DNA of 64,000 nt, from NCBI RefSeq assembly GCF_003850565.1, contig NZ_CP027706.1, positions 3,596,001 to 3,660,000 of the forward strand, in the 5' to 3' direction. A program made the position numbers and the translations under genes. This DNA comes from Pseudomonas sessilinigenes. Its GTDB lineage: Bacteria; Pseudomonadota; Gammaproteobacteria; Pseudomonadales; Pseudomonadaceae. Numbering within the stretch: position 1 is the first letter of the stretch; the number at the start of each line of letters is the position of its first letter. A model generated the notes under the pieces. The model was not told where the DNA came from. It did not search any database and saw only the letters and a program-made list of their open reading frames with translations. Positions 9,519-24,486 of this stretch are shown here, one piece after another.

Positions 9519-9529
9519 TGCGTGTTTGA

Positions 9530-10047: not shown

Positions 10048-10154
10048 TTATTTGCTTAGCACGTCGTAATCTGGCTTCTTCTGTAAGTTATTGAATTTAC
10101 TAGAAAAAGTGCTTAACAAAATGATTTGACGGGCTATAATGCGCGGCAACATAT

Positions 10155-10231
10155 GCACTCGTAGCTCAGCTGGATAGAGTACTCGGCTACGAACCGAGCG
10201 GTCACAGGTTCGAATCCTGTCGAGTGCACCA
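10155..10231 (+). tRNA. tRNA-Arg (anticodon ACG), copy 1
   Basis: 77 nt with stem GCACTCG/CGAGTGC, anticodon loop CTACGAA (ACG, edited to ICG) and encoded CCA. It is the first of three identical genes. Confidence 0.97.
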
Positions 10232-10303
10232 TTTAAGAGTTAGTTATAGCAATATGAATAACTCGGTTTCAGCCAGTTGTGGTCTGGTCTAAAAGCACAA
10301 AAT

Positions 10304-10380
10304 GCACTCGTAGCTCAGCTGGATAGAGTACTCGGCTACGAACCGAGCGGTCACAGGTTCGAATCCTGTCGAGTGCACCA
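10304..10380 (+). tRNA. tRNA-Arg (anticodon ACG), copy 2
   Basis: Identical in sequence to copy 1, 72 bp downstream. The spacer is nearly the same as that after it. Confidence 0.97.
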
Positions 10381-10451
10381 TTTAAGAGTTAGTTGTAGCG
10401 ATATGAATAACTCGGTTTCAACCAGTTGTGGTCTGGTCTAAAAGCACAAAT

Positions 10452-10528
10452 GCACTCGTAGCTCAGCTGGATAGAGTACTCGGCTACGAACCGAGCGGTC
10501 ACAGGTTCGAATCCTGTCGAGTGCACCA
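10452..10528 (+). tRNA. tRNA-Arg (anticodon ACG), copy 3
   Basis: Identical to copies 1 and 2, and directly followed by a terminator that ends the tRNA transcript. Confidence 0.97.
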
Positions 10529-10534
10529 TATATC

Positions 10535-10570
10535 AAAAAGCCCGTATCGAAAGATACGGGCTTTTTGTTT
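10535..10570 (+). terminator. Terminator of the tRNA cluster
   Basis: AAAAAGCCCGTATC pairs with GATACGGGCTTTTT, followed by a further T-run. A classical rho-independent terminator. Confidence 0.93.
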
Positions 10571-10935
10571 TTAGCGATTTTTATCTTCTCTCTTTCTTCT
10601 TCGTTCGTCTGGAACGGCTGGTCCCGTGTGCAGTCGAATCCCTTGTGCGCCACAGGCTTTTTTCTCTCGGTGTGTGTTTTCTTTTTTCGCCGAAGCGTCG
10701 CAGTTTCGTAGATTCGGGCTTTGCTCAGGTTTATGTCGCAAGCGCTTGTTCTTGCCGTGATTTTTTAGCGTCTAAAACCGCCAGGCGGTGTATGATTGCG
10801 CCCGTCAGCCCCGCCGGGGCTTGTGGAATATCTCCATGGACTTACCCAGTAGTTACTCAGTATCTCGTTTTCACAATCATGAACTGACTGATTGATCCTT
10901 CCGGCGTGCTCCTCTGCTGGGAGTGGAGTTCGCCT
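10571..10935. other. Intergenic region upstream of mgtE
   Basis: No convincing full gene is present. The stretch is T-rich at first, then holds a small GC hairpin (AGCCCCGCCGGGGCT, about 10808-10822) and a 19-codon open frame just upstream of mgtE. It should contain the mgtE promoter and leader. No known magnesium riboswitch was recognised. Confidence 0.5.
10836..10895 (+). CDS. Possible 19-residue leader peptide before mgtE
   Basis: ATG 10836 opens a frame encoding MDLPSSYSVSRFHNHELTD and stops 40 bp before the mgtE ATG. A GC hairpin lies just upstream. Leader peptides control some magnesium transporter genes in enterobacteria, which makes this worth checking. The ribosome site is poor and nothing here proves translation. 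Confidence 0.25.
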   Translation: MDLPSSYSVSRFHNHELTD

Positions 10936-12378
10936 ATGACCGAAGTAGAAGTAAAGAAAACGCAGGAAAGCCTGCAGGACCGCCTCGCTCAGGTCGTTGA
11001 GCTACTGCAGCGCCAGCGAGTGGTCGAAGACCTGACGCATCGTCAGGAAGGCCACCATCATGACCGGGTGGAAAACCTGGTCCATCGGCAGAATCTGGTC
11101 GAGTTGCAGCGCAAGCTCGATGACCTGCACTCCGCCGACGTCGCCTATATCCTCGAAGCCTTGCCCCTGGAAGAACGTCTGACCGTCTGGCAGTTGGTCA
11201 AGGCCGAGCGTGACGGCGACATCCTTCTCGAAGTATCCGACTCCGTACGTGAAACCCTGATCGCCGACATGGACGATCATGAGCTCCTGGCTGCGGCCAA
11301 GGAGATGGACGCCGACGAACTTGCTGACCTGGCTCCCGAGCTGCCGCGAGACGTTGTCCATGAGCTGATGGAGGCTCTTGACGGGCAGCAGCGTGAGCGC
11401 GTTCGTTCTGCGTTGTCCTATGACGAAGAGCAAGTCGGCGCATTGATGGACTTCGAGATGGTGACCATCCGCGAGGATGTCAGCCTTGAAGTGGTCCTGC
11501 GTTACCTGCGGCGCCTGAAGGAGCTACCCGGCCATACTGACAAGTTGTTCGTCGTGGACTACGACGGTGTGCTCAAGGGTGTGCTGCCGATCAAGCGACT
11601 GTTGGTCAATGACCCTGAAAAGCAGGTCGCAGAAGTCATGGCCAGCGATCCGGTGAGTTTTCATCCCGATGAAGATGCCTATGACGCTGCCCAGGCATTC
11701 GAGCGTTATGACCTTATTTCGGCACCGGTGGTCGATAAGAACGACAAGCTGATTGGACGTTTGACCATCGATGAAATGGTCGACCTGATCCGCGAGGAGA
11801 GCGAGAGCGAAGTCCTCAGCATGGCCGGTCTGCGTGAGGAGGAAGACATCTTCGCGTCGGTGTGGAAGTCCCTGCGCAACCGTTGGGCCTGGTTGGCGAT
11901 CAACCTGATTACGGCATTCCTGGCATCTAGGGTGATTGGCCTGTTCGAGGGCTCCATCGAGAAGCTGGTGGCGCTGGCGGCGCTGATGCCCATTGTTGCC
12001 GGGATAGGCGGCAACTCGGGTAACCAGACCATCACCATGATTGTGCGGGCGATGGCCTTGGATCAGGTGAGCACTGGTAATACCTCGCGGCTGATGCGCA
12101 AGGAACTGGCGGTAGCCTTGATCAACGGCCTCATCTGGGGTGGGGTGATCGGTGCCGTGGCCTACATGCTCTATGGAAGCTGGTCGCTAGGGGTGGTCAT
12201 GACGGCCGCCATGACCTTGAATCTGTTGCTGGCGGCCCTCATGGGGGTATTGATCCCTATGACCCTGGCGCGCCTGGGGCGGGATCCAGCGATGGGCGCC
12301 AGTGTGATGATCACCGCTATGACCGACAGCGGTGGCTTTTTCATTTTCCTTGGCCTGGCGACCATCTTCCTGCTCTAA
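10936..12378 (+). CDS. mgtE: Magnesium transporter MgtE
   Basis: MgtE is a Mg2+-gated channel of the inner membrane. The 480-residue product has the expected order. A helical cytoplasmic N domain holds ALPLEERLTVWQLV and the acidic ELADLAPELPRDVVHELM repeats. A CBS pair follows (around VMASDPVSFHPDEDAYDAAQAFERYDL), then five membrane helices with the signature PIVAGIGGNSGNQT. The start at 10936 is preferred over an upstream codon at 10906 because the family begins near MTEVEVKKTQESLQDRL. In P. aeruginosa MgtE influences type III secretion through the Gac/Rsm small RNAs (established for that species, not shown here). Confidence 0.95.
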   Translation: MTEVEVKKTQESLQDRLAQVVELLQRQRVVEDLTHRQEGHHHDRVENLVHRQNLVELQRKLDDLHSADVAYILEALPLEERLTVWQLVKAERDGDILLEVSDSVRETLIADMDDHELLAAAKEMDADELADLAPELPRDVVHELMEALDGQQRERVRSALSYDEEQVGALMDFEMVTIREDVSLEVVLRYLRRLKELPGHTDKLFVVDYDGVLKGVLPIKRLLVNDPEKQVAEVMASDPVSFHPDEDAYDAAQAFERYDLISAPVVDKNDKLIGRLTIDEMVDLIREESESEVLSMAGLREEEDIFASVWKSLRNRWAWLAINLITAFLASRVIGLFEGSIEKLVALAALMPIVAGIGGNSGNQTITMIVRAMALDQVSTGNTSRLMRKELAVALINGLIWGGVIGAVAYMLYGSWSLGVVMTAAMTLNLLLAALMGVLIPMTLARLGRDPAMGASVMITAMTDSGGFFIFLGLATIFLL

Positions 12379-12404
12379 ACCCATTTGCATGCCGGTTTTC
12401 TATC

Positions 12405-12436
12405 GAAGCGCCTTGATGGCGCTTCGTTGTTTTTGC
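12405..12436 (+). terminator. Terminator after mgtE
   Basis: GAAGCGCC and GGCGCTTC pair around a TTGAT loop and are followed by GTTGTTTTT. Confidence 0.85.
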
Positions 12437-12439
12437 GGG

Positions 12440-12470
12440 CAAAAAAAAGCCAGCTATTAGGCTGGCTTGA
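12440..12470 (-). terminator. Terminator after amrZ
   Basis: On the minus strand AAGCCAGCC and GGCTGGCTT-type arms around a short loop run into eight T residues. It faces the mgtE terminator. Confidence 0.88.
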
Positions 12471-12485
12471 GTGTTCTGGGTGAAA

Positions 12486-12812
12486 TCAGGTGGCGTCTGC
12501 GGCCATTTCGGCGTCATGGGCGATCAGCGAGACCAAGGCGTTCTGCTGGCGATGTGAGAGTTGGCGGAAACGTTGAAGCAGTTCGCGTTCATGCAAGGAC
12601 AGTTCGGGGCTGTCCAGGCGCATGCTTAGCTCTTCACCCAAGGCGCCTTCCTGAATAAGACTCTGTTCCAGGCGCGCGATGATTTCGGAGTTCATGCTGC
12701 GATGATGGTTGCGAGCCACCTCGGCAATGCGTTCACGCATCCCGTCGGGCAGACGTACGACGAACTTGTCAGCCGTACGGCTGGAATAAATTGCCTGTTT
12801 CAATGGGCGCAT
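12486..12812 (-). CDS. amrZ: AmrZ/AlgZ ribbon-helix-helix regulator
   Basis: AmrZ is an Arc-type ribbon-helix-helix DNA-binding protein that controls alginate, motility and c-di-GMP genes in Pseudomonas. The 108-residue product has the beta strand and helices in [20 protein letters not shown] and [18 protein letters not shown], and a C-terminal tetramerisation part ([36 protein letters not shown]). It is nearly identical in layout to P. aeruginosa AmrZ. No strong ribosome site precedes the ATG. A TAACCGGTTA palindrome sits directly upstream and may serve autoregulation. Confidence 0.96.
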
Positions 12813-12817
12813 ATATT

Positions 12818-12827
12818 TAACCGGTTA
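12818..12827. promoter_or_regulatory. Palindrome at the amrZ start
   Basis: TAACCGGTTA, a 10-bp perfect palindrome, lies 5 bp upstream of the amrZ ATG, where the ribosome site would be expected. A protein bound here would block translation initiation or transcription. No regulator is assigned. Confidence 0.35.
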
Positions 12828-12923
12828 GTTCAGGGGAGCGGTTCTCGGAATTGGCCGCGGGCTGTTTTTTAGGACAAGCCTGATTGCCAAATGTTCAACC
12901 TGAATTGTTAAGAGGCCCGCATC

Positions 12924-13082
12924 ATGCCTCAAGATCGCCAGATCATTGGCGCCAATTCTGTGACAAATATTGAACTGGATAAAGGCGTTATGCCAGCACC
13001 AATTATCAGAAATGCGGACTGGTTTGAAAAGATCGCTGATCCGCGTTGTTGGCCGCATTCTCTCTTCCTGCGAGAGCGCTGA
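12924..13082 (+). CDS. Possible 52-residue protein between amrZ and phnN
   Basis: The frame starts at ATG 12924, with AAGAGG about 10 bases upstream, and encodes a 52-residue soluble-looking protein rich in Ile, Asp and Trp with the stretch NADWFEKIADPRCWPHSLFL. Its composition is protein-like and it is the best candidate in the 378-bp gap between amrZ and phnN. An overlapping 98-codon minus-strand frame looks like its shadow. The function is unknown. Confidence 0.4.
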   Translation: MPQDRQIIGANSVTNIELDKGVMPAPIIRNADWFEKIADPRCWPHSLFLRER

Positions 13083-13190
13083 TGCACTAGCGAAGGTGCA
13101 CGCGATGCGGGTGAGCATCATAATCCCTACCTGTTAGAGGATAGTGGCAAATGGCCGATTTACTAGTGGCACTGCTCGGGGATGCGTTCC

Positions 13191-13772
13191 ATGCCAGGTA
13201 GACTCATTTATTTGATGGGACCTTCGGGAGCTGGCAAAGATACTCTGATCGATGCGGCCAAGCCGTCATTGAGGGAGTTGGGTTGCGAGGTCGCAAGACG
13301 GGTCATTACGCGTTCAGCCGAGTCGGTGGGAGAGGACGCTCACGAAGTCTCGGTCGAGGAATTCGAGCGGCAGGCGGTACGCGGAGATTTCGCCTTGTCA
13401 TGGCGAGCCAATGGCTTGGGTTATGGGATTCCAGCCCAGATCGATCAATGGCTGGCTCAAGGACGCCATGTCTTGGTCAACGGTTCACGAGGGTACCTGT
13501 CCCAGGCCCGGCAACGCTATCCAGGCCTGATTGCGATCGTTCTGACGGTGAACACCGAGGTATTGCGCCAGCGCTTGCTGCGCAGGGCCAGGGAAGACCT
13601 GTCGGAGATCGAGAATCGCCTGCGGCGCAATGAGCAATTCGCCGATTCAGCCTGGTTGGAGGAGCAGCAGGTAGTACGCCTGGATAACTCCGCGCAATTG
13701 CAGGACACCCTGCAGTATCTACTGGAGATACTGCGCCAGCATGGGATCAGCGCAGTACCGGATCGAACTTGA
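13191..13772 (+). CDS. phnN: Ribose 1,5-bisphosphate phosphokinase PhnN
   Basis: PhnN phosphorylates ribose 1,5-bisphosphate to PRPP, the salvage end of the C-P lyase route. The 193-residue protein has the guanylate-kinase-like fold with P-loop GPSGAGKD near residues 10-17 and the VITRSAESVGEDAHEV lid segment. GGGGA lies 8 bases before ATG 13191, so this start is chosen over ATG 13182. No other phn gene is nearby, although in P. aeruginosa amrZ flanks the whole phn cluster. Confidence 0.92.
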   Translation: MPGRLIYLMGPSGAGKDTLIDAAKPSLRELGCEVARRVITRSAESVGEDAHEVSVEEFERQAVRGDFALSWRANGLGYGIPAQIDQWLAQGRHVLVNGSRGYLSQARQRYPGLIAIVLTVNTEVLRQRLLRRAREDLSEIENRLRRNEQFADSAWLEEQQVVRLDNSAQLQDTLQYLLEILRQHGISAVPDRT

Positions 13773-13926
13773 TCTTGCGTCCGGCAAGCAATGCAACCAG
13801 CGACAAGCAGAAGAACAAGCCGCAGGCGGCCAAGGAAATGTGGCTGAGCGTTTCCTCGGGCAATGCCATGGCGGCAATGCCACTGAGGAGCGTCAGGATA
13901 AGCAGGCTTTTCGCTGCGGTGGACAT
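13747..13926 (-). CDS. Small inner-membrane protein of 59 residues
   Basis: Read on the minus strand from ATG 13926, the protein has two hydrophobic segments (SLLILTLLSGIAAMAL and ISLAACGLFFCLSLVALLAG) and a basic tail GRKIKFDPVLR, a two-helix hairpin. It overlaps the 3' end of phnN by 26 bp in the convergent direction. The hydrophobic periodicity and positively charged end argue that it is real. I do not recognise a family. In P. aeruginosa a small hypothetical membrane protein (PA3371 position) also ends the phn region. Confidence 0.68.
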   Translation of the reverse strand: MSTAAKSLLILTLLSGIAAMALPEETLSHISLAACGLFFCLSLVALLAGRKIKFDPVLR

Positions 13927-13949
13927 AAATGGCTTCCGATATCGTGGTC

Positions 13950-14183
13950 TTAGAACGCCCAGTGTTGTGTAGGCCCTGGAGCCTGCTGCAGAGGCTGCCC
14001 TGTAGCAATCCGGGTCACATCCCCAGGTTCTACCTGAGTCTTGAGGATGGCCAATCGTGGGGCTAGGCGTTGGCCGTAATGGGTAGAGGAGAGGGGGCTG
14101 GAGACTGCATCGTCGGGTTGAAAGTGAAAGGCCACCAATATGGCGATGGCTGTCGCATTCAGGAGAAACAGGACGCTGTTCAT
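13950..14183 (-). CDS. Small single-pass or exported protein, 77 residues
   Basis: The product begins MNSVLFLLNATAIAILVAFHF, one N-terminal hydrophobic helix, followed by a polar, Pro/Gln-rich stretch of about 55 residues. GAGATGG lies before the ATG at 14183; a start three codons earlier (14192) is also possible. It is just upstream of, and in line with, the 59-residue membrane protein (24 bp apart), so the two probably form a small operon. No function is recognised. Confidence 0.6.
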   Translation of the reverse strand: MNSVLFLLNATAIAILVAFHFQPDDAVSSPLSSTHYGQRLAPRLAILKTQVEPGDVTRIATGQPLQQAPGPTQHWAF

Positions 14184-14300
14184 GGGCACCATCTCTAGGC
14201 TGCTTGTTCCGGGGAATAAAGCAGGCCGCGTGCCAGAAGTCTACAGGTCGTCAAACCCCATAAAAACAACAAGTTATATGTGGATTACGGTAGCGACGAA

Positions 14301-14344
14301 TTGCACTTTGCAATAATGGCTTTTTGCAGTGATGCAATTTGCAC
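14301..14344. repeat. Cluster of five TGCA motifs
   Basis: TGCA occurs at 14302, 14309, 14325, 14333 and 14340, mostly as TTGCA or TGCAA, in an AT-rich gap. The spacings of 7, 16, 8 and 7 bp and the palindromic half-sites suggest binding by an oligomeric regulator of the small genes to the left. Confidence 0.4.
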
Positions 14345-14475
14345 GATGATGGGCTGCCGATTGCTCTTGCGTCTTGGTGTTTCCTGTAAAAAGCCCTACG
14401 CACGACATGACAAATACGGCGTTGGTCGTTAACATGCACGCCGTCCTTTGTGCCGTATCAGGCACTTACCTCCGG

Positions 14476-14552
14476 GTCTCAGTAGCTCAATTGGATAGAG
14501 CATCCCCCTCCTAAGGGGAAGGTTGGCAGTTCGAACCTGCCCTGGGACACCA
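14476..14552 (+). tRNA. tRNA-Arg (anticodon CCT)
   Basis: 77 nt with acceptor GTCTCAG/CTGGGAC, loop CTCCTAA, TTCGAAC T-arm and encoded CCA. This tRNA is a common integration site for mobile elements, but no integrase or duplicated 3' end was seen here. Confidence 0.95.
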
Positions 14553-14648
14553 TCTCCCTCTCCGTATCCATAACAGTGCATTGCCTTATCCGGGCAACGG
14601 GTACCCTGATTGCAGATCAAGGCCCGTGCAGAGCTGTTTGCGTTGTTC

Positions 14649-14786
14649 TCAAGTCATTCGCCACAAGATGAACAAACGTCCAAGCATGTAGGTGAAAACC
14701 ATCATCGTCAGAACCCAGAATCGTCCGGCCGGCAGGCTGGAGCTGGTTTGGATCAGGACGGTAATCAGTGGGGCTATGTGGGACAC
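14649..14786 (-). CDS. Membrane peptide of 45 residues, GTG start
   Basis: GGAGG stands 7 bases before a GTG at 14786. The frame encodes VSHIAPLITVLIQTSSSLPAG followed by a hydrophobic stretch (WVLTMMVFTYMLGRLFILW) and RMT. The ideal ribosome site and membrane-like C-terminal half make translation likely, although the peptide is too short for homology by eye. It lies between tRNA-Arg(CCT) and the terminator of the 14.9-19.2 kb operon. Confidence 0.55.
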   Translation of the reverse strand: MSHIAPLITVLIQTSSSLPAGRFWVLTMMVFTYMLGRLFILWRMT

Positions 14787-14814
14787 GGTGCAACCTCCAT
14801 TTTTCTGTGGGCAT

Positions 14815-14851
14815 GAAAAAGCCCCAGGACATCGTCTGTACCTGGGGCTTT
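14815..14851 (-). terminator. Terminator of the DUF1266/PcfJ operon
   Basis: AAAGCCCCAGG and CCTGGGGCTTT pair across a 14-base loop. On the minus strand the stem is followed by TTTTC. It lies about 100 bp beyond the last gene of the minus-strand operon. Confidence 0.8.
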
Positions 14852-14948
14852 CATCGTGAGAGCTTGGGATTTATCTAGAGTGCAACTTAAATCCTCGGCT
14901 TGTGTGTCTCACGTGTGAGACTGCCCATAGTGAGGGTTTTCCCGATCC

Positions 14949-15611
14949 TCACTCGGTTGCCGGGCTGAATGCCGGCAAGCCCTGCCACGCCACTGCTGCC
15001 CAGGCCCCACCGTCGGCCGCGAGCAAGTGCTTGAGGCTTTCCTCGTTGAAGGTGCTCCCCAGGGCGTCTGCCCTGAAGGCGGCCACCCATTGCCGGCGCC
15101 CCTGCATGAAGGCCTGTCCGAAGTCTTCCCAGCTGTCGAAGCAGTCCTGGGCCCGCTGGGCGTTGAGCAACATGATGCGCCAGCCGCTGTCGGCCTCCAG
15201 CCAGCCCATCAGCGTTGCGCAACGGGCGAAGAATGCGCTGCGCACGCAGGCGAAGGCAACGGCGGCTCGTGGATCGTCGCTGGGGTTCAGGCCATGCAGG
15301 TCGATACGAAACCACTGGCGTTCCAAGGTGGAGTTCAGGTGGTTGCGAACTTCATCGTCGCTGGCATTGCTGCGAAAGCCGATCTGGTGGAGCAACGGAG
15401 CCCTGAGGGTGTCCTTGGCCTGGTCGGCGAAATAGGTGGTCTCGGGATCGAAGAAACCGGTCATGCCGGTGGCATCCACCATGGGTTGCGCCAGTGTCAG
15501 GGCCCAGCGCTTGCGTGGGGTGAAGACCACCAGGGAGGTGGGGCTGGAGCGGCGGCGCAAGTAACCCCAGACCAGCCAGGCGCCGAATAGGAGGCCGATG
15601 ACTGTCAGCAT
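14949..15611 (-). CDS. DUF1266-like protein with N-terminal membrane anchor
   Basis: The 220-residue protein starts MLTVIGLLFGAWLVWGYLRRR, one membrane helix with a basic stop-transfer end, so the rest should be cytoplasmic. The body shows the DUF1266 pattern: an F..E....LRAPLLHQIGF segment, AVAFACVRSAFFARCATLMGWL, and QDCFDSWEDFGQAFMQGRRQW near residues 152-172. It overlaps the stop of the PcfJ-like gene by 7 bp, so the two are translationally coupled. DUF1266 has no known activity, and the family call is by eye. Confidence 0.75.
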   Translation of the reverse strand: MLTVIGLLFGAWLVWGYLRRRSSPTSLVVFTPRKRWALTLAQPMVDATGMTGFFDPETTYFADQAKDTLRAPLLHQIGFRSNASDDEVRNHLNSTLERQWFRIDLHGLNPSDDPRAAVAFACVRSAFFARCATLMGWLEADSGWRIMLLNAQRAQDCFDSWEDFGQAFMQGRRQWVAAFRADALGSTFNEESLKHLLAADGGAWAAVAWQGLPAFSPATE

Positions 15612-16858
15612 GATTTCCCCCGCTGCCTGCTGGCTTGCCAGGTGCAAATGGACTCGGCCTGGGCTGGAGACATGTCTTTCCATGGCACGCCTTCGGTGCG
15701 ATACAACGGGTCCTCCAGGCGGGGCTGCGGCCAAGGGCTTTTCTTGTAGACATGCCGGATGGCGTAGCGCACAGCCGGGGCCTCGGGTTCGTTTTCCAGC
15801 AACAGGTCGCACTGGCGAGCCGCCACCAGCCACTGGACCATGGGCGAGGGCGAGTCCAGTCGCGAGAACAGCTGTGGGTAGCGCGATACCAGGCGTGTCT
15901 GGGCTTCGGGCTCACTGACTTCTTCGATGTGCAGCCACCCTGTTTCGGTGCGCACGATTCCGATCGCGATGCAGTCGTCCGGCGTCTGTTGGTCGGTACC
16001 TAGGGTATTGAGGAGCGCCAGCAGGTCATGGAAGTAGCGCTCGACAGGTGGACGGTTCTGCTTGCCCTTGACCTGCTCCACGGTCAGTGAGCCGCTGCCC
16101 TGGACAATCAGGCTGACCGTGATATGGGGCTGGCCCTGGGCATCGCGCAGGCTGAAGACCCGCATGTCCTGTTGCTCAACGGCCTCGGCGTAGCGCTCGC
16201 CATAGCCACCGGTCAAGGCTCGGCGGTTGGCGAACTGCCCCAGGCAGTGGCGCATCACATAGCTTTCAAACGCCATCTCGGCCCGTAGCAGTGGGCTGTC
16301 GCTGCGCATTTCCACCCAGGTGTGCTCGGCGCAGGTCACCGTGACCTGCAAGGCATCGGCCGAACTCTGGCGCCAGCCCTGGTCGACCCGGGCTGCCATT
16401 TGCGCATGTTCCTTCTCCCACAGCGCCAGGGCCTGGGGGCAGTTGATGCGGTCGAGCTTGCCCTCCAGGGCCGTGCCCTTGCGCGACACCAGGAACTCCA
16501 CCAGCCGGGCCTCTTGTGCCAGCAGCTGGGGTTGTGCCGGGTCGATCCATACCAGGGGCGCCACGTTGGTGGAGGCATCCGCTTCCTGGGCCTTGGCGGC
16601 ACTGAAGTGTCCGGCTACCCAGGCCGGTAGCCCAGCGCTCCCCAGGGCCTGGGCAGCGTCATCCAGGTTGTGGATGCTCCGTGCCGGCTCAAAGTTGCCA
16701 GCCAGGTGCCGGTAGAAGTGGTTGAGCAGCCAGCCTTGCACGGCGGCGTCGTCTTCCCGGGCCTGGCTGCGTTGCTTGATGCCACGCTTGAGTTCATCGG
16801 CATTGAGCAGGTTGCGCGCTGCGTAGCTGGAGTTGCGCTTGTCGGTGGCTACTTCCAT
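15605..16858 (-). CDS. PcfJ-like protein
   Basis: The 417-residue protein begins MEVATDKRNSSYAARNLLNA. ATG 16858 overlaps the end of the upstream gene by 10 bp. Its middle carries the PcfJ-like signature, with MRHCLGQFA at residues 202-210, then a beta-rich segment (HITVSLIVQGSGSLTVEQVKGKQNR) with the QVKGKQNRPP motif near residues 258-267. This resembles the conserved half of enterococcal plasmid protein PcfJ and of many chromosomal homologues. The conserved His-Cys pair suggests an active or metal site. The biochemical function is unknown. No conjugation genes are nearby. Confidence 0.75.
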   Translation of the reverse strand: MEVATDKRNSSYAARNLLNADELKRGIKQRSQAREDDAAVQGWLLNHFYRHLAGNFEPARSIHNLDDAAQALGSAGLPAWVAGHFSAAKAQEADASTNVAPLVWIDPAQPQLLAQEARLVEFLVSRKGTALEGKLDRINCPQALALWEKEHAQMAARVDQGWRQSSADALQVTVTCAEHTWVEMRSDSPLLRAEMAFESYVMRHCLGQFANRRALTGGYGERYAEAVEQQDMRVFSLRDAQGQPHITVSLIVQGSGSLTVEQVKGKQNRPPVERYFHDLLALLNTLGTDQQTPDDCIAIGIVRTETGWLHIEEVSEPEAQTRLVSRYPQLFSRLDSPSPMVQWLVAARQCDLLLENEPEAPAVRYAIRHVYKKSPWPQPRLEDPLYRTEGVPWKDMSPAQAESICTWQASRQRGKSC

Positions 16859-19179
16859 AGCTGCCACCAGCTCTTCTTGGTGGCAGGGGCGGCAGGCGCC
16901 TGCAGCTCGGCCACGATCGACTCGATCCGGGCGCGGCATTGCACGTCGTAGTCTTTGCTCGGGTCGCAAAGGGCCAGGGTCCGGGCGCAATACTCGAGGG
17001 CTTCTTCAGTGCGCCCACGAGCCTTGAAGTAGTCCACCGAACAGGACATCACCGACACCTCGTTCATTTCCAGTACGCAGGGCTCATAGCGCTGCCACAG
17101 GCTGTCGGCGTTGTCGGGGTGGGTGGGGGCCAGGTAGCGCGCCAGCTTGATCCGGTCGAACAGCGCCGAGGAGTCCAACTGTTGATCGCTGATCTCCTGG
17201 GCTTGCTGCCAGTTGAGCAGGCGTTCCAGCCAGATGAGGATTTCACTGTCGCGGTCCAGCGAGTACAGGGCGTAGGCCACCGAGACGATGTAGCTCTCTG
17301 GATTGTGACGGCTGTAGCCGTAGTCCATCGAGAAATGCCACAGCTGCTCCGCGGCTTCGGCGATGCCCGGGTAGTCGTCCATCGCGATACGGGCGCTGAG
17401 CACTCCGTTGAAGTGCTCGGCGAAGGAGCTGGCGGCAATGCCTCGCTGGTGCAGTTCGATGGCATCTGCGTAGCGCTGTTGTTCGTTGTAGCAACGGTAG
17501 TTGATCGCCAGGTTGTTGCAGAGCATCGAGTACAGGTGGGCACAGCCATCGAACGGGTGGCCACTGCCGGTGGCGAAGTAGCGCTCCATGTGGGCCTGGC
17601 CTTGTTCATAAGCGTCTTTCTGGGCATCGCGCAGCAGCGAGTAGGCTTCGTCGCGAGCCTCGCCAGGCAGTTTGTCGGCCTCCGGCTCCGCCAGTTCCTC
17701 CATGGTCAGCGCGTAGTTGTAGGCGTAATTGCCGCTGGCCAGCTCCGGCCGGTGTTGCTTGAGCGCTTCGATGACACCCAGCTTGCGCACCAACGCCACG
17801 AACAGGGCATAGGCACTGCGATTATCGTGCAGGCGACCGGCCTGGGTGGCCTGTTGCAGCAGCTCGACCTCAGTGGCCGCGTCGATCAGATTACGGTCGG
17901 CGTCGTGTACGGCGGCCAGGCGCTTGATCCAGGGCTGTTCGGGGTTGCGCCGCAGCGCCTCGGCCCGGGCTTCGTCGAACAACCGATCGAGCTGCTCCAG
18001 GTCATCGACTGCGGCATACAGGGCGGCCAGCAGCGGTGTGGTCGCCGGCTCCTCCTGGGCGATTGGCGGCAGTGCGTCGAGGAATATCTGCAACAGCTCG
18101 CTGGTGACACAGGCGCGCATGATGCAAATCGGCCACCAGGCGTTGTGGTCTTCCGGGTCCTTGAGGCGCTCGAGCACCAGGCGCGCCACCGGCGGCCACA
18201 TCTCCGACTGGCGGTCGTAAATATCCAGGAACGCACGATGGCCAGCTTCCTCCAGGCGTCCGGCTTCCTGCAGCCAGGGCAGCTCATACTCGATGAAGCT
18301 GTTGCCACCGCCGCTATCCAGGCTCATCGCTGCGACATGACAGATCTTCAGGGCACCGTTCAGGTCGCCCTGGGCGTGCAGGGAACGGGCCGCCAGGCGT
18401 GCGATGCGCACGTCCCACTCGCGGCGCCGGGGTTGCGACAGACCGGCCGTGAGCTGGGCGATCGGTTGCTCGAACAGGGCCAGGCGCAGCGGGATGATTT
18501 CAATCAGCGAGTTGCCCAGCCACAGCCAGTCACCTTCGTCGATATCCTGATCGGGGCTGGCGTTGCGGATGACGTTGATCGCGTCCAAGGCTGCGGCGCG
18601 GGCTTCTTCGTCACGCTCATGGCGCGCCAGCGCCAGGGCGCGGCGTCGATGCCGGTCGGCGTCGTCCCAGGCTCGCAGGGCGGCGCGTTCGGGGTTGATC
18701 AGGGCCAGCGCATAGCGCACTTCGACGGTCTTGAGTGCGACTTCGATACTGCCCAGTTCCAGCTGGTCGAAGATCCGGTAGCGCCGGTAGTACTCGACAT
18801 CGAAGTCCAGGGTCTGCGTGGCCATCTGGTTGAGTTTTTCCAGCACTTGCAGCAGTGCCGGTTCGTCATCCAGGTAGTTGGCGACCTGCAGACGCAGGAT
18901 ATCCAGGTTGATCTGCAACTCGTCGCGTGCTGCGTCCCCTGAGGCTTGCAGCAGGGCGTCGCCGTCCCGGTCGATGACGGCTCGGGCGGCAACCGAGTCG
19001 CCGGCCTGCATCCACAAGGTGTGCAGGCGAGCGATGGAGCCCAGGGAGTCGGCGAATAGAGGCTGTGCTTGCAACTGAGCCAGCAGGGTATCGGTTTCCT
19101 GCTCTTGCTGTTGCGCTTCGAGGCGGTCCATGAACTGTTCCAGTTCAATACCGGTAATCACACTGCTGTCCTGCGCCAT
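16849..19179 (-). CDS. Large helical-repeat (TPR-like) protein, unknown function
   Basis: A 776-residue soluble protein with no signal peptide. It is built of many amphipathic helix pairs rich in Ala, Leu, Glu and Arg (for example RLAARSLHAQGDLNGALKIC and LEYCARTLALCDPSKDYDVQ), like a tetratricopeptide solenoid. It ends with a Pro/Ala linker and a basic Trp-rich tip (KKSWWQLWK). The ATG at 19179 follows GGAG by 8 bases; the ATG 12 bp earlier is part of that ribosome site. First gene of the three-gene overlapping operon, so it probably acts as a scaffold for its two partners. Not recognised. Confidence 0.8.
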   Translation of the reverse strand: MAQDSSVITGIELEQFMDRLEAQQQEQETDTLLAQLQAQPLFADSLGSIARLHTLWMQAGDSVAARAVIDRDGDALLQASGDAARDELQINLDILRLQVANYLDDEPALLQVLEKLNQMATQTLDFDVEYYRRYRIFDQLELGSIEVALKTVEVRYALALINPERAALRAWDDADRHRRRALALARHERDEEARAAALDAINVIRNASPDQDIDEGDWLWLGNSLIEIIPLRLALFEQPIAQLTAGLSQPRRREWDVRIARLAARSLHAQGDLNGALKICHVAAMSLDSGGGNSFIEYELPWLQEAGRLEEAGHRAFLDIYDRQSEMWPPVARLVLERLKDPEDHNAWWPICIMRACVTSELLQIFLDALPPIAQEEPATTPLLAALYAAVDDLEQLDRLFDEARAEALRRNPEQPWIKRLAAVHDADRNLIDAATEVELLQQATQAGRLHDNRSAYALFVALVRKLGVIEALKQHRPELASGNYAYNYALTMEELAEPEADKLPGEARDEAYSLLRDAQKDAYEQGQAHMERYFATGSGHPFDGCAHLYSMLCNNLAINYRCYNEQQRYADAIELHQRGIAASSFAEHFNGVLSARIAMDDYPGIAEAAEQLWHFSMDYGYSRHNPESYIVSVAYALYSLDRDSEILIWLERLLNWQQAQEISDQQLDSSALFDRIKLARYLAPTHPDNADSLWQRYEPCVLEMNEVSVMSCSVDYFKARGRTEEALEYCARTLALCDPSKDYDVQCRARIESIVAELQAPAAPATKKSWWQLWK

Positions 19180-19702
19180 CGTTAACTCCATTGAATAATG
19201 CTGTGTGCATCCATTGATGCATCGTCTGGCAGACCGACTCGCCTATGTCGCTGAGGCCCTCCTCGGGTGCCTACCGACTCTTCGGCGCCTGGCCTGCAAG
19301 CTCTGGCCGCTGACGATCGGTGTGTCGCGACCGGGTGGGGGAGGCGACAAGAACGATCGGGGCTTCGAGGCGCTGCACGCTATCAGGTGATGTTACAGAA
19401 ATCCAAGATTTCCCAGGCTGGCCAAGACCATTTTCCCGGTGTTTTTATCGGCGCTGGCCAAATCGCAACATGCACTGGCCAAGGCGCAATAAATGCAATC
19501 GATCGCCTATAAGGGAATGCTCGGTCCGGCCGATAACCTGCGATGGACAATTGTGTTCCCAAGCGGCGACCTGCATCACAGGCCAGCCGCAAAGTGCTTG
19601 ATAGCCTTCAGCCAGCCGCTATTATCTGCGCGCCGAGGGGCTGTGAAGCCGGGTGGGCCCTGGCGTCTTTGGATTGATCTTCTTAATTGCCTGGAATCTT
19701 CG
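19180..19702. other. Divergent promoter region
   Basis: About 520 bp separates the minus-strand operon from the receiver-TPR gene and should carry both promoters. It contains three direct copies of CTGGCCAA (see separate entry). No credible gene was found, although an open frame runs into the following gene from 19493. Confidence 0.6.
19418..19482. repeat. Three CTGGCCAA repeats upstream of the receiver-TPR gene
   Basis: CTGGCCAA is found at 19418-19425, 19454-19461 and 19475-19482, the last two spaced 21 bp, two helical turns. The embedded TGGCCA is palindromic. A possible operator array. Confidence 0.35.
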
Positions 19703-21307
19703 ATGCTGGCGTACCACCAAAAGAGCTTTTTGATCGTCGATGATTTCTCGGACTACCGCAGCTCGGTGCGTTCGATGTTGCGGGAGCTGGGCGTCAAGGA
19801 CGTGGATACCGCCGACTCGGGGGAGCAGGCCCTGCGCATGTGCGCGCAGAAACGCTATGACTTCATCTTGCAGGACTACCACCTGGGCGACGGCAAGAAA
19901 AACGGCCAGCAGGTGCTCGAAGACCTGATGATGGAAAAGCTCATCAGCCATGAGAGCGTATTCCTCATGGTCACTGCCGAAAGTAGCCAGGCCATGGTGC
20001 TCAGCGCCCTGGAGCACGAACCTGATGCCTACCTGACCAAACCCTTCAACCGCTCCGGCCTGGCCCAGCGCTTGGAGCGACTGCAACAACGCAAGGCTTT
20101 GCTCAAGCCGATCCTCCAGGCGTTGGACCGGGGCAAGCCGGTGGAAGTGCTTAACGCCTGCGTCACCCTGTGCAAGCAAGATCCGCGTTATGCGCCGCTG
20201 TGCCTGCGCTACCGGGCCGACGCCTTGCGCGACATGAACCAGAACGAGCCGCTGGAGCGCCTGTACAACAGCATCCTGGCGGATCGGCCGCTGCCCTGGG
20301 CCTATGTCGGCCTGGGTCGCTTGCTGTTCAAGCGTGGCCAGGTCACCGAGGCCAAGGCGGTGTATGAGAAGGCGCTGAAGACTTTCCCGATGATGCCGGG
20401 CCTGTATGACGGCCTGGCCGATGTGCTGGTGGCCGAAGGCGATACCAAGCGCGCGCAGAACGTGCTCGAGGAAGCGGTGCGCTTGTCGCCGCTGGCCCCT
20501 CGGCGCCAGGCGTTGCTGGGCAAGCTGGCCATGGCCAACGAAGACTTCGACAGCGCCTCCAGGGCGTATCGCCAGGCGGTCAGCCAGGGGGCGCAATCGC
20601 GCTTCAAGGACCCGGAAAGCAACCTGGGCCTGGCCCATGCGCTGATCAGCAAGGGCAGTGAGCGCGGCCTGGATACCCGTACCCGGCTGGAGATCAACCA
20701 GACGCTGAGCGCTGTGGCCAAGGAAAACCCCACCGATCCTGGCTTGCAGATCCGCGCGCGGCTGATGAAGGCCACCAGCTTGCTGCTCAATGATGCCGAG
20801 ACCGCCGACAAGCTCACCGAACAGGCCTTGCAGCGGCTCGAAGGCATGGAGCAGTTCATGAGCCCTGAAGCGGCGCTGCTGGTGGCCAAGCAGTTGCAGA
20901 TGCTGGGGCAGGCCAGTGCTGGTGCTTCGATGCTCAAGAACTGTGCGGAAATCTACGGTGACGATCCGAAAGTCATGCAGAACATTGCCAAGCTGACCGA
21001 CGACCCGACTATCCTCAGTTCTTCCAATGCGGCGGCCGATATCAACCGCCAGGGCGTGCGCAGCTACAAGGCCGGCAACCTGGCCGAGGCCCGGGAGCTG
21101 TTCCGCAAGGCCCTGGCCATGCAACCCAAGAACATCAGTATTGCCCTGAACATGGCGCAGTCGCTGTTGCATGGTGCCGACGCCAACCCGGATGCGGCGC
21201 TCCTGGAGGAATGCCAGGCGTGCCTGAAAATGGTCGGCATGATGCCCGATACCGACGCGCGTTATCCGCGCTACCAGAAGCTGCGAAGCAAGGCGTTTGG
21301 CGAATGA
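19703..21307 (+). CDS. Response-regulator receiver plus TPR protein
   Basis: The 534-residue protein has a CheY-type receiver at residues 1-125 (acidic pair D13-D14, phospho-acceptor Asp58 in FILQDYH, switch Lys113 in LTKPF), then about 400 residues of TPR-like repeats. Examples are LPWAYVGLGRLLFKRGQVTEAKAVYEKAL and VRSYKAGNLAEARELFRKALAMQ. There is no DNA-binding or enzymatic output, so it should signal by protein contacts. An ATG overlapping its stop starts a histidine kinase, its likely partner. The start at ATG 19703 gives the normal receiver N-terminus; an open frame upstream to 19493 is not protein-like. Confidence 0.88.
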   Translation: MLAYHQKSFLIVDDFSDYRSSVRSMLRELGVKDVDTADSGEQALRMCAQKRYDFILQDYHLGDGKKNGQQVLEDLMMEKLISHESVFLMVTAESSQAMVLSALEHEPDAYLTKPFNRSGLAQRLERLQQRKALLKPILQALDRGKPVEVLNACVTLCKQDPRYAPLCLRYRADALRDMNQNEPLERLYNSILADRPLPWAYVGLGRLLFKRGQVTEAKAVYEKALKTFPMMPGLYDGLADVLVAEGDTKRAQNVLEEAVRLSPLAPRRQALLGKLAMANEDFDSASRAYRQAVSQGAQSRFKDPESNLGLAHALISKGSERGLDTRTRLEINQTLSAVAKENPTDPGLQIRARLMKATSLLLNDAETADKLTEQALQRLEGMEQFMSPEAALLVAKQLQMLGQASAGASMLKNCAEIYGDDPKVMQNIAKLTDDPTILSSSNAAADINRQGVRSYKAGNLAEARELFRKALAMQPKNISIALNMAQSLLHGADANPDAALLEECQACLKMVGMMPDTDARYPRYQKLRSKAFGE

Positions 21308-21993
21308 TCGAAAAGCAACAGGCGCTCGACTTTTCCACGGTGATCGCCTCCACCGTACATGACATGAAGAACTCCCTGGCCATGCTGATGCAGGCCCATT
21401 CCCAATGGCTGGCGCGTCTGCCAGCCGAGCAGTTGCCTGCCGAACAGGGAGTGATCGACTATGAGTTCGCGCACCTCAACGGCATGCTGGTGCAGCTGTT
21501 GGGGCTGTACAAGCTGGGGGTCAATCAACTGCCGTTGCAGCCGGCCTACCATGAATTGGACGACTTCATCGAAGCGCAGTTGGTGAGTCACCAGGAAGTG
21601 TTCAAGAGCCGCGGGATCTCTGCCACCTATGAGGTCGATCCGCTGAGCCCCCTGGGTTTCTTCGATCGTGAGCTGATCGCCTCGGTATTGGCCAACTGCA
21701 TCAACAACTCGATCCGGCATGCTCGCCATGCGCTGTTGATCAGTGTCAGCGACGAAGAAGGCCAGGTGGTGCTGTCGATCAACGACGATGGCGAAGGCTA
21801 CCCCCAGGCGATGATCGAGCGGCAGGCCGAGTACATGCAGGGCATCAATCAAAGCAGTGGCAGTACCGGCCTGGGGCTGTATTTTGCCGGGCGCATCGCT
21901 GAGCTGCACCAGCGCAATGGCGTTTGCGGGCATACCCGGATCAGCAATGGTGGTCCGTTGGGTGGTGGCTTGTTCAAGCTCTACCTGCCCTGA
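21304..21993 (+). CDS. Small soluble sensor histidine kinase
   Basis: Only 229 residues, with no membrane segment or input domain. The H-box-like VIASTVHDMKNSLAML gives His19 as phospho-site. The ATPase part shows the N box LANCINNSIRHA, the D box INDDGEGYP and the G box GSTGLGLYFAGRIA. The ATG overlaps the upstream stop (ATGA), so it is translationally coupled to the receiver-TPR protein. Its signal must come from a bound partner. The 3' end overlaps the convergent LysR gene by 13 bp. Confidence 0.87.
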   Translation: MIEKQQALDFSTVIASTVHDMKNSLAMLMQAHSQWLARLPAEQLPAEQGVIDYEFAHLNGMLVQLLGLYKLGVNQLPLQPAYHELDDFIEAQLVSHQEVFKSRGISATYEVDPLSPLGFFDRELIASVLANCINNSIRHARHALLISVSDEEGQVVLSINDDGEGYPQAMIERQAEYMQGINQSSGSTGLGLYFAGRIAELHQRNGVCGHTRISNGGPLGGGLFKLYLP

Positions 21994-22925
21994 CCCTCGC
22001 TCAGCCGCTGTTGGCGGTTGCCCAGCTGTTGTCCAGCCAGCTCCAGGCAATCCAGGAGGGTGGCCAGTGCCGTCCGTGGTTCTTGGCCCTGGCGGGTAAT
22101 GCAATGGAAGCTCGAGCGATACGCCAGGCGCTCAGGTAGCAGGGCGCGCAATTGGCCTTGGGCCACCCAGTTGGCGGCATAGTGACTGGGCAGGTAGCCC
22201 AGGTAGGCCGTGGAGAAGATCAGGGTGGCAATGGCTTCCATGCTGTAGGCATTGATGGCCTGGTTGAAGTGCAGGTCGTGGGGACGCTGGTTTTCCGCCA
22301 TGTAGCCCCGGCCGACATAGTCCGCGGCGCAAATGTGTTCCAGGCTCAGTTGTGCATCGTGGCAGGCGAATAGCGGATGTCCTTTGGCGCAGTACAGGTT
22401 CTGTTCCTCATCGAACAGCGGCTGGTAGTTCAAGCCCGACAGTTGATGGTGGAACGCTCCGATGGCCAGGTGCAGGCGCTCATCGAGTACCGCTTGTTCC
22501 AGTTCGTCGGGACGCATCAGGTGCAGGTTCGGGCGCACCTGTGGCAGGCGTTGGCGCAGGTGTTTTAGGGCCAGGGGAAGCGGAGCGCAGGGCAGGCTGA
22601 TCAGGCTGTCGACGCTGCCTATCTGCAAGTGTTCACGTGCGTTGGGCGCAAGTCGGTTGGCGTGTTGGCGAAAGCGCTCGATATCGGCGAACAGCAATTG
22701 TGTCGCCTCGAACAATTCCTGGCCCTGGTCGGTCAGTTGGAAGCCGCTGCTGCCTCGCCGGCACACGGAATAGCCCAGGCGTTCCTCAAGGTCACGAACC
22801 ACCACGCTCAGTCGCGAGAGGCTGGTGTTGAGCCTGGCCTGGGCGGCCGTAAAGCCCCCGGCTTCGACGATGGCGCAGAATACCCGCAGCATCCGCAGGT
22901 CGATGTCGGCAAGATTCCCCAGCAT
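21981..22925 (-). CDS. LysR-family transcriptional regulator
   Basis: The 314-residue protein has an N-terminal winged helix-turn-helix (MLRVFCAIVEAGGFTAAQARLNTSLSRLS-type segment near residues 11-40) and a periplasmic-binding-like effector domain. It is divergent from a glutamine-synthetase-like gene with 217 bp between, the usual arrangement for a LysR regulator and its target. The effector is unknown; a polyamine or amine is a reasonable guess from the neighbour. Confidence 0.9.
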   Translation of the reverse strand: MLGNLADIDLRMLRVFCAIVEAGGFTAAQARLNTSLSRLSVVVRDLEERLGYSVCRRGSSGFQLTDQGQELFEATQLLFADIERFRQHANRLAPNAREHLQIGSVDSLISLPCAPLPLALKHLRQRLPQVRPNLHLMRPDELEQAVLDERLHLAIGAFHHQLSGLNYQPLFDEEQNLYCAKGHPLFACHDAQLSLEHICAADYVGRGYMAENQRPHDLHFNQAINAYSMEAIATLIFSTAYLGYLPSHYAANWVAQGQLRALLPERLAYRSSFHCITRQGQEPRTALATLLDCLELAGQQLGNRQQRLSEGQGR

Positions 22926-23142
22926 GTGGGCCTCCAGCGGCCTGGCTCACAATCACCGGCCGAGCCTACTCCATTGTTTGAATGAGTGGACGTTCGTGCC
23001 TGGCGCGGGTCGTGAATGCGCAGGTATTGGCGGGGACAGGCATGCCCGGGATTTTGTTCTGCCCTGCTTGAAATCCCGAACGGGTGATGCGTATTTTGTA
23101 CGGGTCGCCGTTCGCGGCTCGTATAACAACAAGGATTGAGTC

Positions 23143-24486
23143 ATGACAACCGATGGCCACAGTTCACTCGCCGAGCGATTGACGGGCATTGATGAAATCG
23201 AATGTGTTACTGCGGATTTGAATGGCGTACCGCGGGGGAAGGTAATGACCGCCGAGGGATTCCTCGAAGGGCGGCGCTTGCAGATGGCTCGTGGGGTGCT
23301 GCTGCAATGCATCATGGGCGGATATCCGCCCGCGCGCTTCTATGGCAGCGACGACGGCGACCTGGCGCTTACCGCCGACCCGCGGCAGATTCATCGCCTG
23401 CCCTGGAGCGAGACTCCACGGGCGCTGGCCATCTGCGATGCAGACGAGCTCAGTGGCGAATCCTCGCGGCTATCGACCCGGGGCCAGCTCAAGCAGGTGA
23501 TTGCCCGCTATGCAGCGCTGGGCCTGGCACCGGTGGTGGCCACCGAACTGGAGTTCTTCGTGTTCGCCCCCAACGAAGATCCGGGGCGGCCCTTCCAGCC
23601 GCCAGTCGGCAAGGACGGCCGTCGAGAAGATGGCTGCTCCGCGTTCAGTGTCAGCTCCAACAATGGACTGCGACCGTTCTTCAACGAAGTCTACGAGTGC
23701 ATGGCCGCCTTGGGCCTGCCTCGCGATACCTTCATGCACGAGATGGGCGTCAGCCAGTTCGAGATCAATCTGTTGCATGGTGATCCGTTGCTGTTGGCGG
23801 ACCAGACGTTCCTGTTCAAGCATCTGCTCAAGGAGGTTGCGCTCAAGCATGGCTTGATCGTGGTCTGCATGGCCAAGCCGCTGGCCCGCACGCCCGGCAG
23901 TTCCATGCACATTCATCAGAGCCTGGTGGAGATTGGTAGCGGCCGTAACGTTTTCAGTGACGATTGCGGGCAACCGACGGCTATGTTCCATCATTTTATT
24001 GGCGGCCTGCAGGCTGGCCTGGCGGATTTCACTGCGTTGTTTGCGCCCAATGTGAACTCCTACCAGCGCCTGTGCCATCCCTACGCATCGCCGAACAATG
24101 CCTGCTGGTCCCACGACAATCGCGCCGCAGGGCTGCGTATTCCCGCCAGTTCACCTGTGGCGCGGCGAGTGGAAAATCGCTTGCCGGGGGCGGATGCCAA
24201 CCCGTACCTGGCCATTGCTGCCAGCCTGGCAGCCGGTTTGCATGGTATCGAGAACGAGCTGGCGCCAACGGCTGCCATCCAGGGCGAATTCGAGGTGCCG
24301 GACAGCCTGTCGCTGCCTTGTACCCTGCATGCGGCACTGGAGCGCCTCAAGCGCAGCCAGTTGGCCAGGGAACTGTTCGGCAATGAGTTCATCGAAGGCT
24401 ACATCGCTTCGAAAACCATGGAGTTGACCAGCTTCTTTGATGAAATCACCCCCTGGGAACGGCGTGTACTAGCGGCCCAGGCATAA
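23143..24486 (+). CDS. Glutamine-synthetase-like ligase (gamma-glutamyl-amine synthetase type)
   Basis: The 447-residue protein belongs to the GlnA/PuuA superfamily, which makes gamma-glutamyl amides with ATP. It has the metal-site ATELEFFVF near residue 142, the EMGVSQFEINLLHGDPLLLADQ block, SSMHIHQSL (ATP/glutamate His), the Arg of NRLPGADANPYLA and a C-terminal active-site region. Its length and the FYGSDDGDLALTADPRQIHRLPW segment fit the polyamine-glutamylating PauA/PuuA group better than GlnA. AAGGA precedes the ATG. The substrate is not determinable here. An MFS gene follows at 70 bp. Confidence 0.85.
   Translation: MTTDGHSSLAERLTGIDEIECVTADLNGVPRGKVMTAEGFLEGRRLQMARGVLLQCIMGGYPPARFYGSDDGDLALTADPRQIHRLPWSETPRALAICDADELSGESSRLSTRGQLKQVIARYAALGLAPVVATELEFFVFAPNEDPGRPFQPPVGKDGRREDGCSAFSVSSNNGLRPFFNEVYECMAALGLPRDTFMHEMGVSQFEINLLHGDPLLLADQTFLFKHLLKEVALKHGLIVVCMAKPLARTPGSSMHIHQSLVEIGSGRNVFSDDCGQPTAMFHHFIGGLQAGLADFTALFAPNVNSYQRLCHPYASPNNACWSHDNRAAGLRIPASSPVARRVENRLPGADANPYLAIAASLAAGLHGIENELAPTAAIQGEFEVPDSLSLPCTLHAALERLKRSQLARELFGNEFIEGYIASKTMELTSFFDEITPWERRVLAAQA

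Follow-up and report, generated by a model that had tools for sequence, protein, structure and literature searches.

Three adjacent genes without an assigned function were found in a 64,000-nucleotide stretch of DNA from Pseudomonas sessilinigenes (contig NZ_CP027706.1, positions 3,596,001 to 3,660,000; hereafter, the window). They code for a large helical-repeat protein (gene 1), a PcfJ-like protein (gene 2), and a DUF1266 protein (gene 3), and the question that they raise is whether the three proteins work together and, if so, where in the cell and by what means. An earlier note, made from the sequence alone, had suggested a complex at the inner membrane that consisted of a solenoid scaffold, a possibly catalytic His-Cys protein, and a membrane anchor. 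Translation of positions 14949-19179 confirmed three complete, minus-strand open reading frames (ORFs), which overlapped by 10 bp (genes 1 and 2) and 7 bp (genes 2 and 3), and the sequence features named in the note (the KKSWWQLWK tail of gene 1 and the H204-C205 pair and QVKGKQNRPP stretch of gene 2) were all present. The results described here, which were drawn from genome, plasmid, Escherichia coli, phage, and viral collections, indicated that the three genes almost certainly constitute one functional module. The best explanation for the whole, to which we assign a probability of about 0.5, is an inner-membrane complex that is scaffolded by a tetratricopeptide repeat (TPR) protein and contains a PcfJ-like, possibly acyl-transferring enzyme.

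One genome per species (84,980 species) was scanned with a profile built from nine PcfJ-like sequences, and 42 loci were recovered, some of which were near-duplicates (e.g., L022 and L058). All three genes were present at 39 of the 42 loci, in identical order and on the same strand. The three exceptions were cut by contig ends; one (L035) was without the DUF1266 gene and two (L048 and L052) were without the solenoid gene. The hosts were Pseudomonas, Ralstonia, Cupriavidus, Burkholderia, another member of the Burkholderiaceae, Trinickia, Massilia, Zoogloeaceae, and Accumulibacter. Because the 42 loci were found via the PcfJ-like profile, they tested only whether PcfJ-like genes keep their partners. 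In the solenoid-side test of co-occurrence, which covered Pseudomonas only, the PcfJ-like protein was found in 9 of 119 genomes and the solenoid was found in those same 9 genomes. When 194 genomes of the order were searched, the PcfJ-like protein was found in the source genome only. The window and the eight other Pseudomonas loci shared one gene order throughout, and flanking genes common to the window were seen at two of the eight. The earlier note had held that recurrence in other genera would support a module and that homologues located mostly apart would refute one. Recurrence was observed in several genera, and the PcfJ-like and solenoid genes stayed together, but DUF1266 had many relatives in another setting, as described below. 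The conserved three-gene module is real, and no description of it was found in the literature. Three families without an assigned function can now be tested as a single unit, which occurs in several proteobacterial genera, and some of its hosts are convenient for laboratory work.

The junctions between the genes were compared across loci. For the solenoid and PcfJ-like genes, the spacing was available at 37 loci; it was an overlap of 10 bp at 20 of these and of 4 bp at 10. Apart from the window, only L019 had the 7-bp overlap between the PcfJ-like and DUF1266 genes; among the 40 loci listed for this junction, 28 had a gap of 7 to 16 bp and 7 had an overlap of 1 to 4 bp. Neighboring genes were clustered for 27 loci, and the 40 largest clusters were judged by eye rather than by profile. 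Beyond the frames of the module and their antisense frames, the widest clusters were a LysR-like regulator (as judged by eye; 6 loci) and a gene that was not assigned to a family (4 loci). The module seems to stand alone, since no neighbor family exceeded 6 of the 27 loci among these clusters. Individual loci also showed departures from the common arrangement. The solenoid gene of L013/L024 (Pseudomonas donghuensis HYS) was broken by an in-frame stop, the PcfJ-like gene of L053 (P. protegens 14B2) was split between frames, and the solenoid of L059 was shorter. In Massilia rubra (L057, positions 5485-16652), four solenoid-like genes surrounded the module, two before it and two after it, and three of the four had a WW tail.

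The strongest evidence that the proteins may act jointly at the membrane came from natural fusions and from the predicted topology of the DUF1266 proteins. In two metagenome-assembled genomes (MAGs), one from the Zoogloeaceae (L050) and one from Accumulibacter (L054), the PcfJ-like and DUF1266 parts were a single open frame, and the two parts were linked by a basic stretch and two hydrophobic segments that are predicted to form a hairpin. Assembly errors are conceivable in MAGs, yet the two cases came from different bins and taxa. All of the separate DUF1266 proteins (43 of 43) carried one N-terminal hydrophobic segment, with no K or R before it and 2 to 7 K or R residues in the next 15 residues. 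Because the positive charge was located C-terminal to the segment in every case, a cytosolic DUF1266 domain is predicted. Thus, a single N-out segment and a fusion hairpin would both place the PcfJ-like and DUF1266 domains on the cytosolic face. The charge bias and the two fusions bore out the single membrane helix that had been claimed for gene 3, and the membrane segments of gene 3 and the fusions are predictions from hydropathy. A physical complex at the inner membrane is, in our view, likely. The DUF1266 assignment itself came from a match of gene 3 to PF06889 at 49.5 bits (E = 7.7e-13; residues 102-209), which was above the gathering score of 27 and spanned only profile positions 83-175 of 175; the match to NCBIfam PRK11380 was weak (21.4 bits, with a cut-off of 386).

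The gene 2 protein was named PcfJ-like because its score against the PcfJ family (PF14284), 14.7 bits, was below the gathering score of 25 bits. Relatives from Salmonella and Burkholderia scored 20.5 and 19.1 bits, respectively, and a relative from E. coli scored 27.0 bits, which placed it above the cut-off. A conserved His and Cys, which we take to be part of the description of the PcfJ family, were found as H204 and C205 in all 32 rows of an alignment that included Salmonella, E. coli, Burkholderia, and Eleftheria, and the claim of a conserved His-Cys pair therefore stood. Also invariant in the 32 rows were a GGYG run, Q262, K264, G265, K266, N268, R269, and P271.

The fold of the PcfJ-like protein was modeled on the natural fusion L050 together with 53 further natural sequences, which yielded a predicted local distance difference test score (pLDDT) of 86.4 and a predicted template modeling score (pTM) of 0.76. 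All structure models in this work were models of single chains. When the L050 model was compared to the viral models in BFVD, ranks 1 to 4 were phage PcfJ-like proteins (best E = 2.3e-7), and several named acetyltransferases appeared further down (E = 0.14 to 0.6). In the PDB, 268 matches were found at E <= 10; the 50 that were listed had E values of 0.14 to 1.0, were led by leucyl/phenylalanyl-tRNA-protein (LF) transferase, and were presumably all proteins with a GNAT-type domain, including ICL2 and malonyl-coenzyme A (CoA) decarboxylase. The sole match in a profile search of PDB sequences was weak (a MarR regulator; E = 0.016), and we took it to be due to chance. In the model, the predicted core order was beta-alpha-alpha-beta-beta-beta-alpha, and the invariant QxKGKxNR loop was located after the fourth strand and before a helix. 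GNATs bind the pyrophosphate of CoA at the loop between the fourth strand and the following helix, and the classical form of this loop is Q/R-x-x-G-x-G/A. These comparisons suggested that the PcfJ-like assignment is well supported and that a GNAT-like fold is plausible; a function as a transferase is a possibility that we put forward tentatively. If the fold assignment holds, it would supply a biochemical hypothesis for the PcfJ proteins that phages and conjugative plasmids encode.

For gene 1, no Pfam family was over its cut-off, and the best match was TPR_7 with 13.4 bits versus 27.9. The AlphaFold2 model, which was based on 33 sequences, was all-helical and confident (mean pLDDT, 91.9; pTM, 0.86), and Foldseek matched it to solenoids such as Ski3, IFT-A, Ctr9, and NatA chains, with a best E value of 1e-6. 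There were 63 PDB matches at E <= 0.001, and we assume that the 50 that were listed are mostly TPR proteins. Because the template modeling (TM) scores were low, we refer to the fold as TPR-like and do not name a specific relative. The model and the matches agreed with the helical-repeat scaffold of 776 residues that the earlier note had described, and they suggested that gene 1 has an antiparallel-helix, TPR-like solenoid fold.

The tail of gene 1 was modeled as a short helix (residues 771-775) after a linker with a pLDDT below 50 (residues 767-769). A WWxxW sequence was found in 41 of the 45 tail rows, which included near-duplicates, and the broader pattern W/F/R-W-x-x-W was found in 43; of the two rows that lacked this pattern, one was an N-terminal fragment from a broken gene and the other was a short paralogue from Massilia. 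The tail pattern matched once in the source genome. In most loci, the codons of the tail overlapped the start of gene 2, and we considered whether WWxxW was fixed merely by the overlapping start codon. This idea was rejected because three cases without the overlap retained the tail: L050, L060, and a paralogue from Massilia (L057, positions 5485-7731) that was followed by another solenoid gene. Since the tail persists in these cases, selection acts on the protein. We propose that KKSWWQLWK is an anchor or docking motif through which the gene 1 protein attaches to a partner or to the membrane.

DUF1266 proteins were found in 33 of the 119 Pseudomonas genomes, and 27 of the 29 matches outside the module were examined. 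A J-domain-like gene adjoined 26 of these 27 loci, as judged with a motif that was written after examples had been read. Two of the J-like proteins from Pseudomonas were tested, and they gave sub-threshold DnaJ matches, as did DjlB and DjlC of E. coli. The exception among the 27 (L110, positions 513-1983) contained two tandem DUF1266-type genes, each with a hydrophobic N terminus. The stretch examined there lacked a J-domain motif, and this locus appears to be a third kind of DUF1266 setting. In E. coli K-12, ybeR-djlB and ybeU-djlC each overlap by 4 bp and are located beside hscC. A review assigns DjlB and DjlC to HscC and suggests membrane proteins as clients (PMC8215388). Because a J-like gene was beside 26 of the 27 non-module loci, DUF1266 seems to serve as an adaptor for more than one kind of partner. 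With such a swap between a J protein and PcfJ plus a solenoid, what DUF1266 does beside HscC can be tested directly.

The same findings fit a different explanation, in which DUF1266 is a membrane chaperone-like or quality-control adaptor that handles client proteins. Elsewhere, its partners would be a J protein of the DjlB/DjlC type and the Hsp70 HscC, and the PcfJ-like protein and TPR solenoid would serve here as a noncatalytic holding device. We consider this explanation doubtful: the three module proteins contained no J domain in Pfam searches, no recurrent Hsp70 neighbor was seen in the listed clusters, and the invariant His-Cys pair and Lys/Gly/Asn/Arg loop of gene 2 resemble an active or ligand-binding site more than a passive surface.

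A variant of the module was found in enteric bacteria. Relatives of the PcfJ-like protein were present in eight plasmid records (four from Salmonella, three from Burkholderia, and one from Eleftheria), all of which were typed as non-mobilizable. In the two Salmonella records that were opened, the PcfJ-like and DUF1266 genes were followed by a DUF4034 gene, and the set was located between baeR and yegQ. A Burkholderia megaplasmid carried a PcfJ-like/DUF1266/DUF4034 set, and the Eleftheria record carried the solenoid set. In E. coli, the DUF4034 set was found in 297 of 5426 genomes, with one copy in each and on chromosomes only. The set was located between yegQ and baeR in the two E. coli genomes that were opened, in an orientation that was reversed relative to baeR when compared to Salmonella. 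A small gene of no assigned function followed the DUF4034 gene in L072 (positions 11683-16392) and L061 (positions 14998-19762), which are from E. coli. A distant homology between DUF4034 and the solenoid was considered and was not supported (hhalign probability of 0.1, with only three DUF4034 sequences). Because the pair was shared and DUF4034 showed no sequence relation to the solenoid, we conclude that the core consists of the PcfJ-DUF1266 pair and that the third, large protein is exchangeable. In the available portions of previous work, STM2135 of the yegQ locus was described as a protein of about 700 amino acids with no assigned function (PMC7400221) and as an inner-membrane protein (PMC3420936). 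Gene order suggested that STM2133 is the PcfJ-like gene, and a table of hypermotile strains lists an STM2133 mutant with values of 1.08 +/- 0.10 and 1.55 +/- 0.46, which, in the portion available, we read as swimming and swarming (PMC4219756).

In the mechanism that we propose, the three proteins most likely come together at the inner membrane, on its cytosolic side. The DUF1266 protein would be a membrane-anchored adaptor that carries the PcfJ-like protein, and the PcfJ-like protein, with its GNAT-like core, His-Cys pair, and Q-x-K-G-K-x-N-R loop, would be the active subunit, which probably transfers acyl or aminoacyl groups. The scaffold that selects or holds a target protein would be the TPR solenoid, with its K/R-x-WWxxW tail docking to a partner or to the membrane. 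Binding among the three proteins, catalysis, and a target can only be inferred from the patterns described above.

Several findings weighed against an enzyme complex of this kind. The resemblance to GNATs was weak, with no PDB match below E = 0.14, and profile-profile tests against the GNAT and LF-transferase families were negative, in comparisons that were insensitive because a control comparison of GNAT and LF-transferase also failed. Moreover, the Q262-V-K-G265-K-Q267 stretch does not end in the G/A of the GNAT loop (the final residue is Q, or L in a Massilia relative). The enteric variant replaces the solenoid with an unrelated large protein, and the core pair is not dependent on the solenoid everywhere; in addition, many relatives of DUF1266 are found in settings other than the module. 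Finally, the membrane segments were only moderately hydrophobic (17-residue means of 1.06 to 2.70) and some of the 17-residue stretches contained K or R, so the membrane call rests on the pattern across proteins and not on single sequences. A more specific proposal, namely, that the module is a bacterial, membrane-anchored protein acyl- or aminoacyl-transferase of several subunits that is built like eukaryotic NatA, with a PcfJ-like GNAT-fold enzyme, a TPR target scaffold, and a DUF1266 adaptor, is unlikely in our judgment. If it were true, a fold and a candidate for the chemistry could be assigned to the whole PcfJ family, including members in phages and conjugative plasmids, and DUF1266 would be a swappable adaptor that is shared with HscC/J-protein chaperone modules.

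The surroundings of the module were examined for signs of mobility. The tRNA-Arg(CCT) gene that had been noted nearby was located at positions 14476-14552, and a response-regulator gene lies beyond the module in the window. In three relatives without the module (L192, L193, and L196), tRNA-Arg(CCT) preceded the matched part of this response-regulator gene by 0.4-0.6 kb. Twenty-nine loci were scanned at the response-regulator gene, two of which (L175 and L176) carry the module there; the tRNA was found within the roughly 1.5 kb covered in those three only. In five carriers (G029, G074, G007, G020, and G096), the module was located away from that gene. Gain and loss affect the three genes together. 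Within the genus, the region from tRNA-Arg(CCT) to the response-regulator gene (positions 14476-19493) looks variable. Integration via the tRNA was considered and was not supported, as no 12-mer of the tRNA recurs in positions 14553-24000, and no integrase was seen by eye among the listed ORFs of the window. The earlier note had pointed to an absence of conjugation genes, and we likewise recognized none by eye in the neighbor clusters of the 27 loci or in four annotated plasmid stretches. No match to the module was found in 50,697 phage records, and none of 57 candidate viral-contig stretches was confirmed. Thus, with non-mobilizable plasmids, no phage match, and no conjugation neighbors, an origin in conjugation or phage was not supported.

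A horizontally spread module for anti-phage or other defense would account for the patchy presence in Pseudomonas (9/119) and E. coli (297/5426), for the differing chromosomal places, and for the empty tRNA-Arg(CCT) site in three related genomes. We regard this idea as improbable, given that none of the three proteins matched a PADLOC family at E <= 1, no recurrent defense or mobile neighbor was recognized, the yegQ-baeR place was constant in the two E. coli and two Salmonella records that were opened, and the phage and viral-contig searches yielded no confirmed match. Searches of PHROGs and of PDB sequences also yielded no convincing match for the three proteins.

The module could, in principle, function in competition between bacteria by supplying a type VI secretion system (T6SS) with an effector, an adaptor, or an immunity function. 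At one Pseudomonas locus (L018, which is the same as L060), tssF, tssG, and a gene for a ClpB/ClpV-type ATPase immediately precede the module. In the available portion of previous work, the Salmonella yegQ locus took up a T6SS immunity islet beside the DUF4034 gene (PMC7400221). The islet is an insertion beside the module and not a part of it, and no T6SS family was recognized by eye in neighbor clusters common to at least 3 of the 27 loci. A general link to T6SS was rejected since it was seen at one locus only, and a role in competition is very improbable.

The coordinates of the features are shown in Table 1. The hairpin after gene 3 contains a perfect 11-nucleotide inverted repeat with arms that are 12 nucleotides apart, and the RNA fold of positions 14800-14870 had an energy of -25.1 kcal/mol (z = -3.75). 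A consensus terminator scan, which has a loop limit of 8, missed this hairpin. The promoter scan of positions 14450-19650 yielded a single site, on the opposite strand, with 0.8 expected. The G+C fraction was 0.643 in the module versus 0.607 in the window.

Table 1. Features of the three-gene module and its flank, in window positions
Feature	Position	Strand	Basis
Gene 1, TPR-type all-helical solenoid, 776 aa (predicted fold)	16849-19179	minus	Complete ORF; AlphaFold2 model, Foldseek
Gene 2, PcfJ-like protein, 417 aa, GNAT-like predicted core	15605-16858	minus	Complete ORF; PF14284 sub-threshold
Gene 3, DUF1266 protein, 220 aa, predicted N-terminal membrane segment	14949-15611	minus	Complete ORF; PF06889
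Gene 1 C-terminal tail KKSWWQLWK	16852-16878	minus	Short helix after low-confidence linker
Gene 2 His204-Cys205	16244-16249	minus	Invariant, 32/32 rows
Gene 2 QVKGKQNRPP loop, residues 262-271	16046-16075	minus	Between fourth core strand and next helix (model)
Gene 3 predicted membrane segment, about residues 1-19, N-out/C-in	15555-15611	minus	Hydropathy and charge bias
Terminator-like hairpin, then U-rich stretch	14818-14851	minus	About 100 bp after gene 3

In the literature searched, PcfJ and DUF1266 were found together nowhere and DUF4034 was found nowhere; DUF1266 was mentioned in three papers, and in tables only in the portions that were available. A PcfJ domain was named in two papers, and PcfJ together with PcfK was named in one. 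No function of the module was found in print, with partial coverage for PcfJ because the broad query was swamped by the names of pCFJ plasmids. Within this literature, the function of the module has not been described previously.

The module can be compared to four known systems. With the PcfJ family (PF14284) of phage and conjugative-plasmid proteins, gene 2 shares the His-Cys pair, the KG-x-N region, and the fold match to phage PcfJ-like proteins; it differs in its sub-threshold score and in that no conjugation or phage genes were recognized beside it. With GNATs and NatA, in which the TPR protein Naa15 is paired with the GNAT Naa10, the likeness consists of the predicted core order, the site of the invariant loop, and an adjacent TPR solenoid. 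In contrast, the fold scores are weak, the motif is incomplete, the sequence searches gave no support, the TPR matches are generic, and we know of no counterpart of the membrane-anchored DUF1266 protein in NatA. The DUF1266-J-domain pairs (ybeR-djlB, ybeU-djlC, and those of Pseudomonas) likewise couple DUF1266 tightly to one partner gene, but the partner is a DjlB/DjlC-type J protein rather than PcfJ plus a solenoid, and the J-linked DUF1266 proteins of Pseudomonas that were inspected appeared, by eye, to be without an N-terminal membrane segment. The enterobacterial yegQ-baeR locus (the STM2135 region of Salmonella and a subset of E. coli) differs in that no solenoid gene was found in the stretches searched and a DUF4034 gene without a WW tail follows the pair. 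The PcfJ-DUF1266 pair itself, its order, and its tight linkage are the same, and the PcfJ-like protein is 38-41% identical to that of Salmonella.

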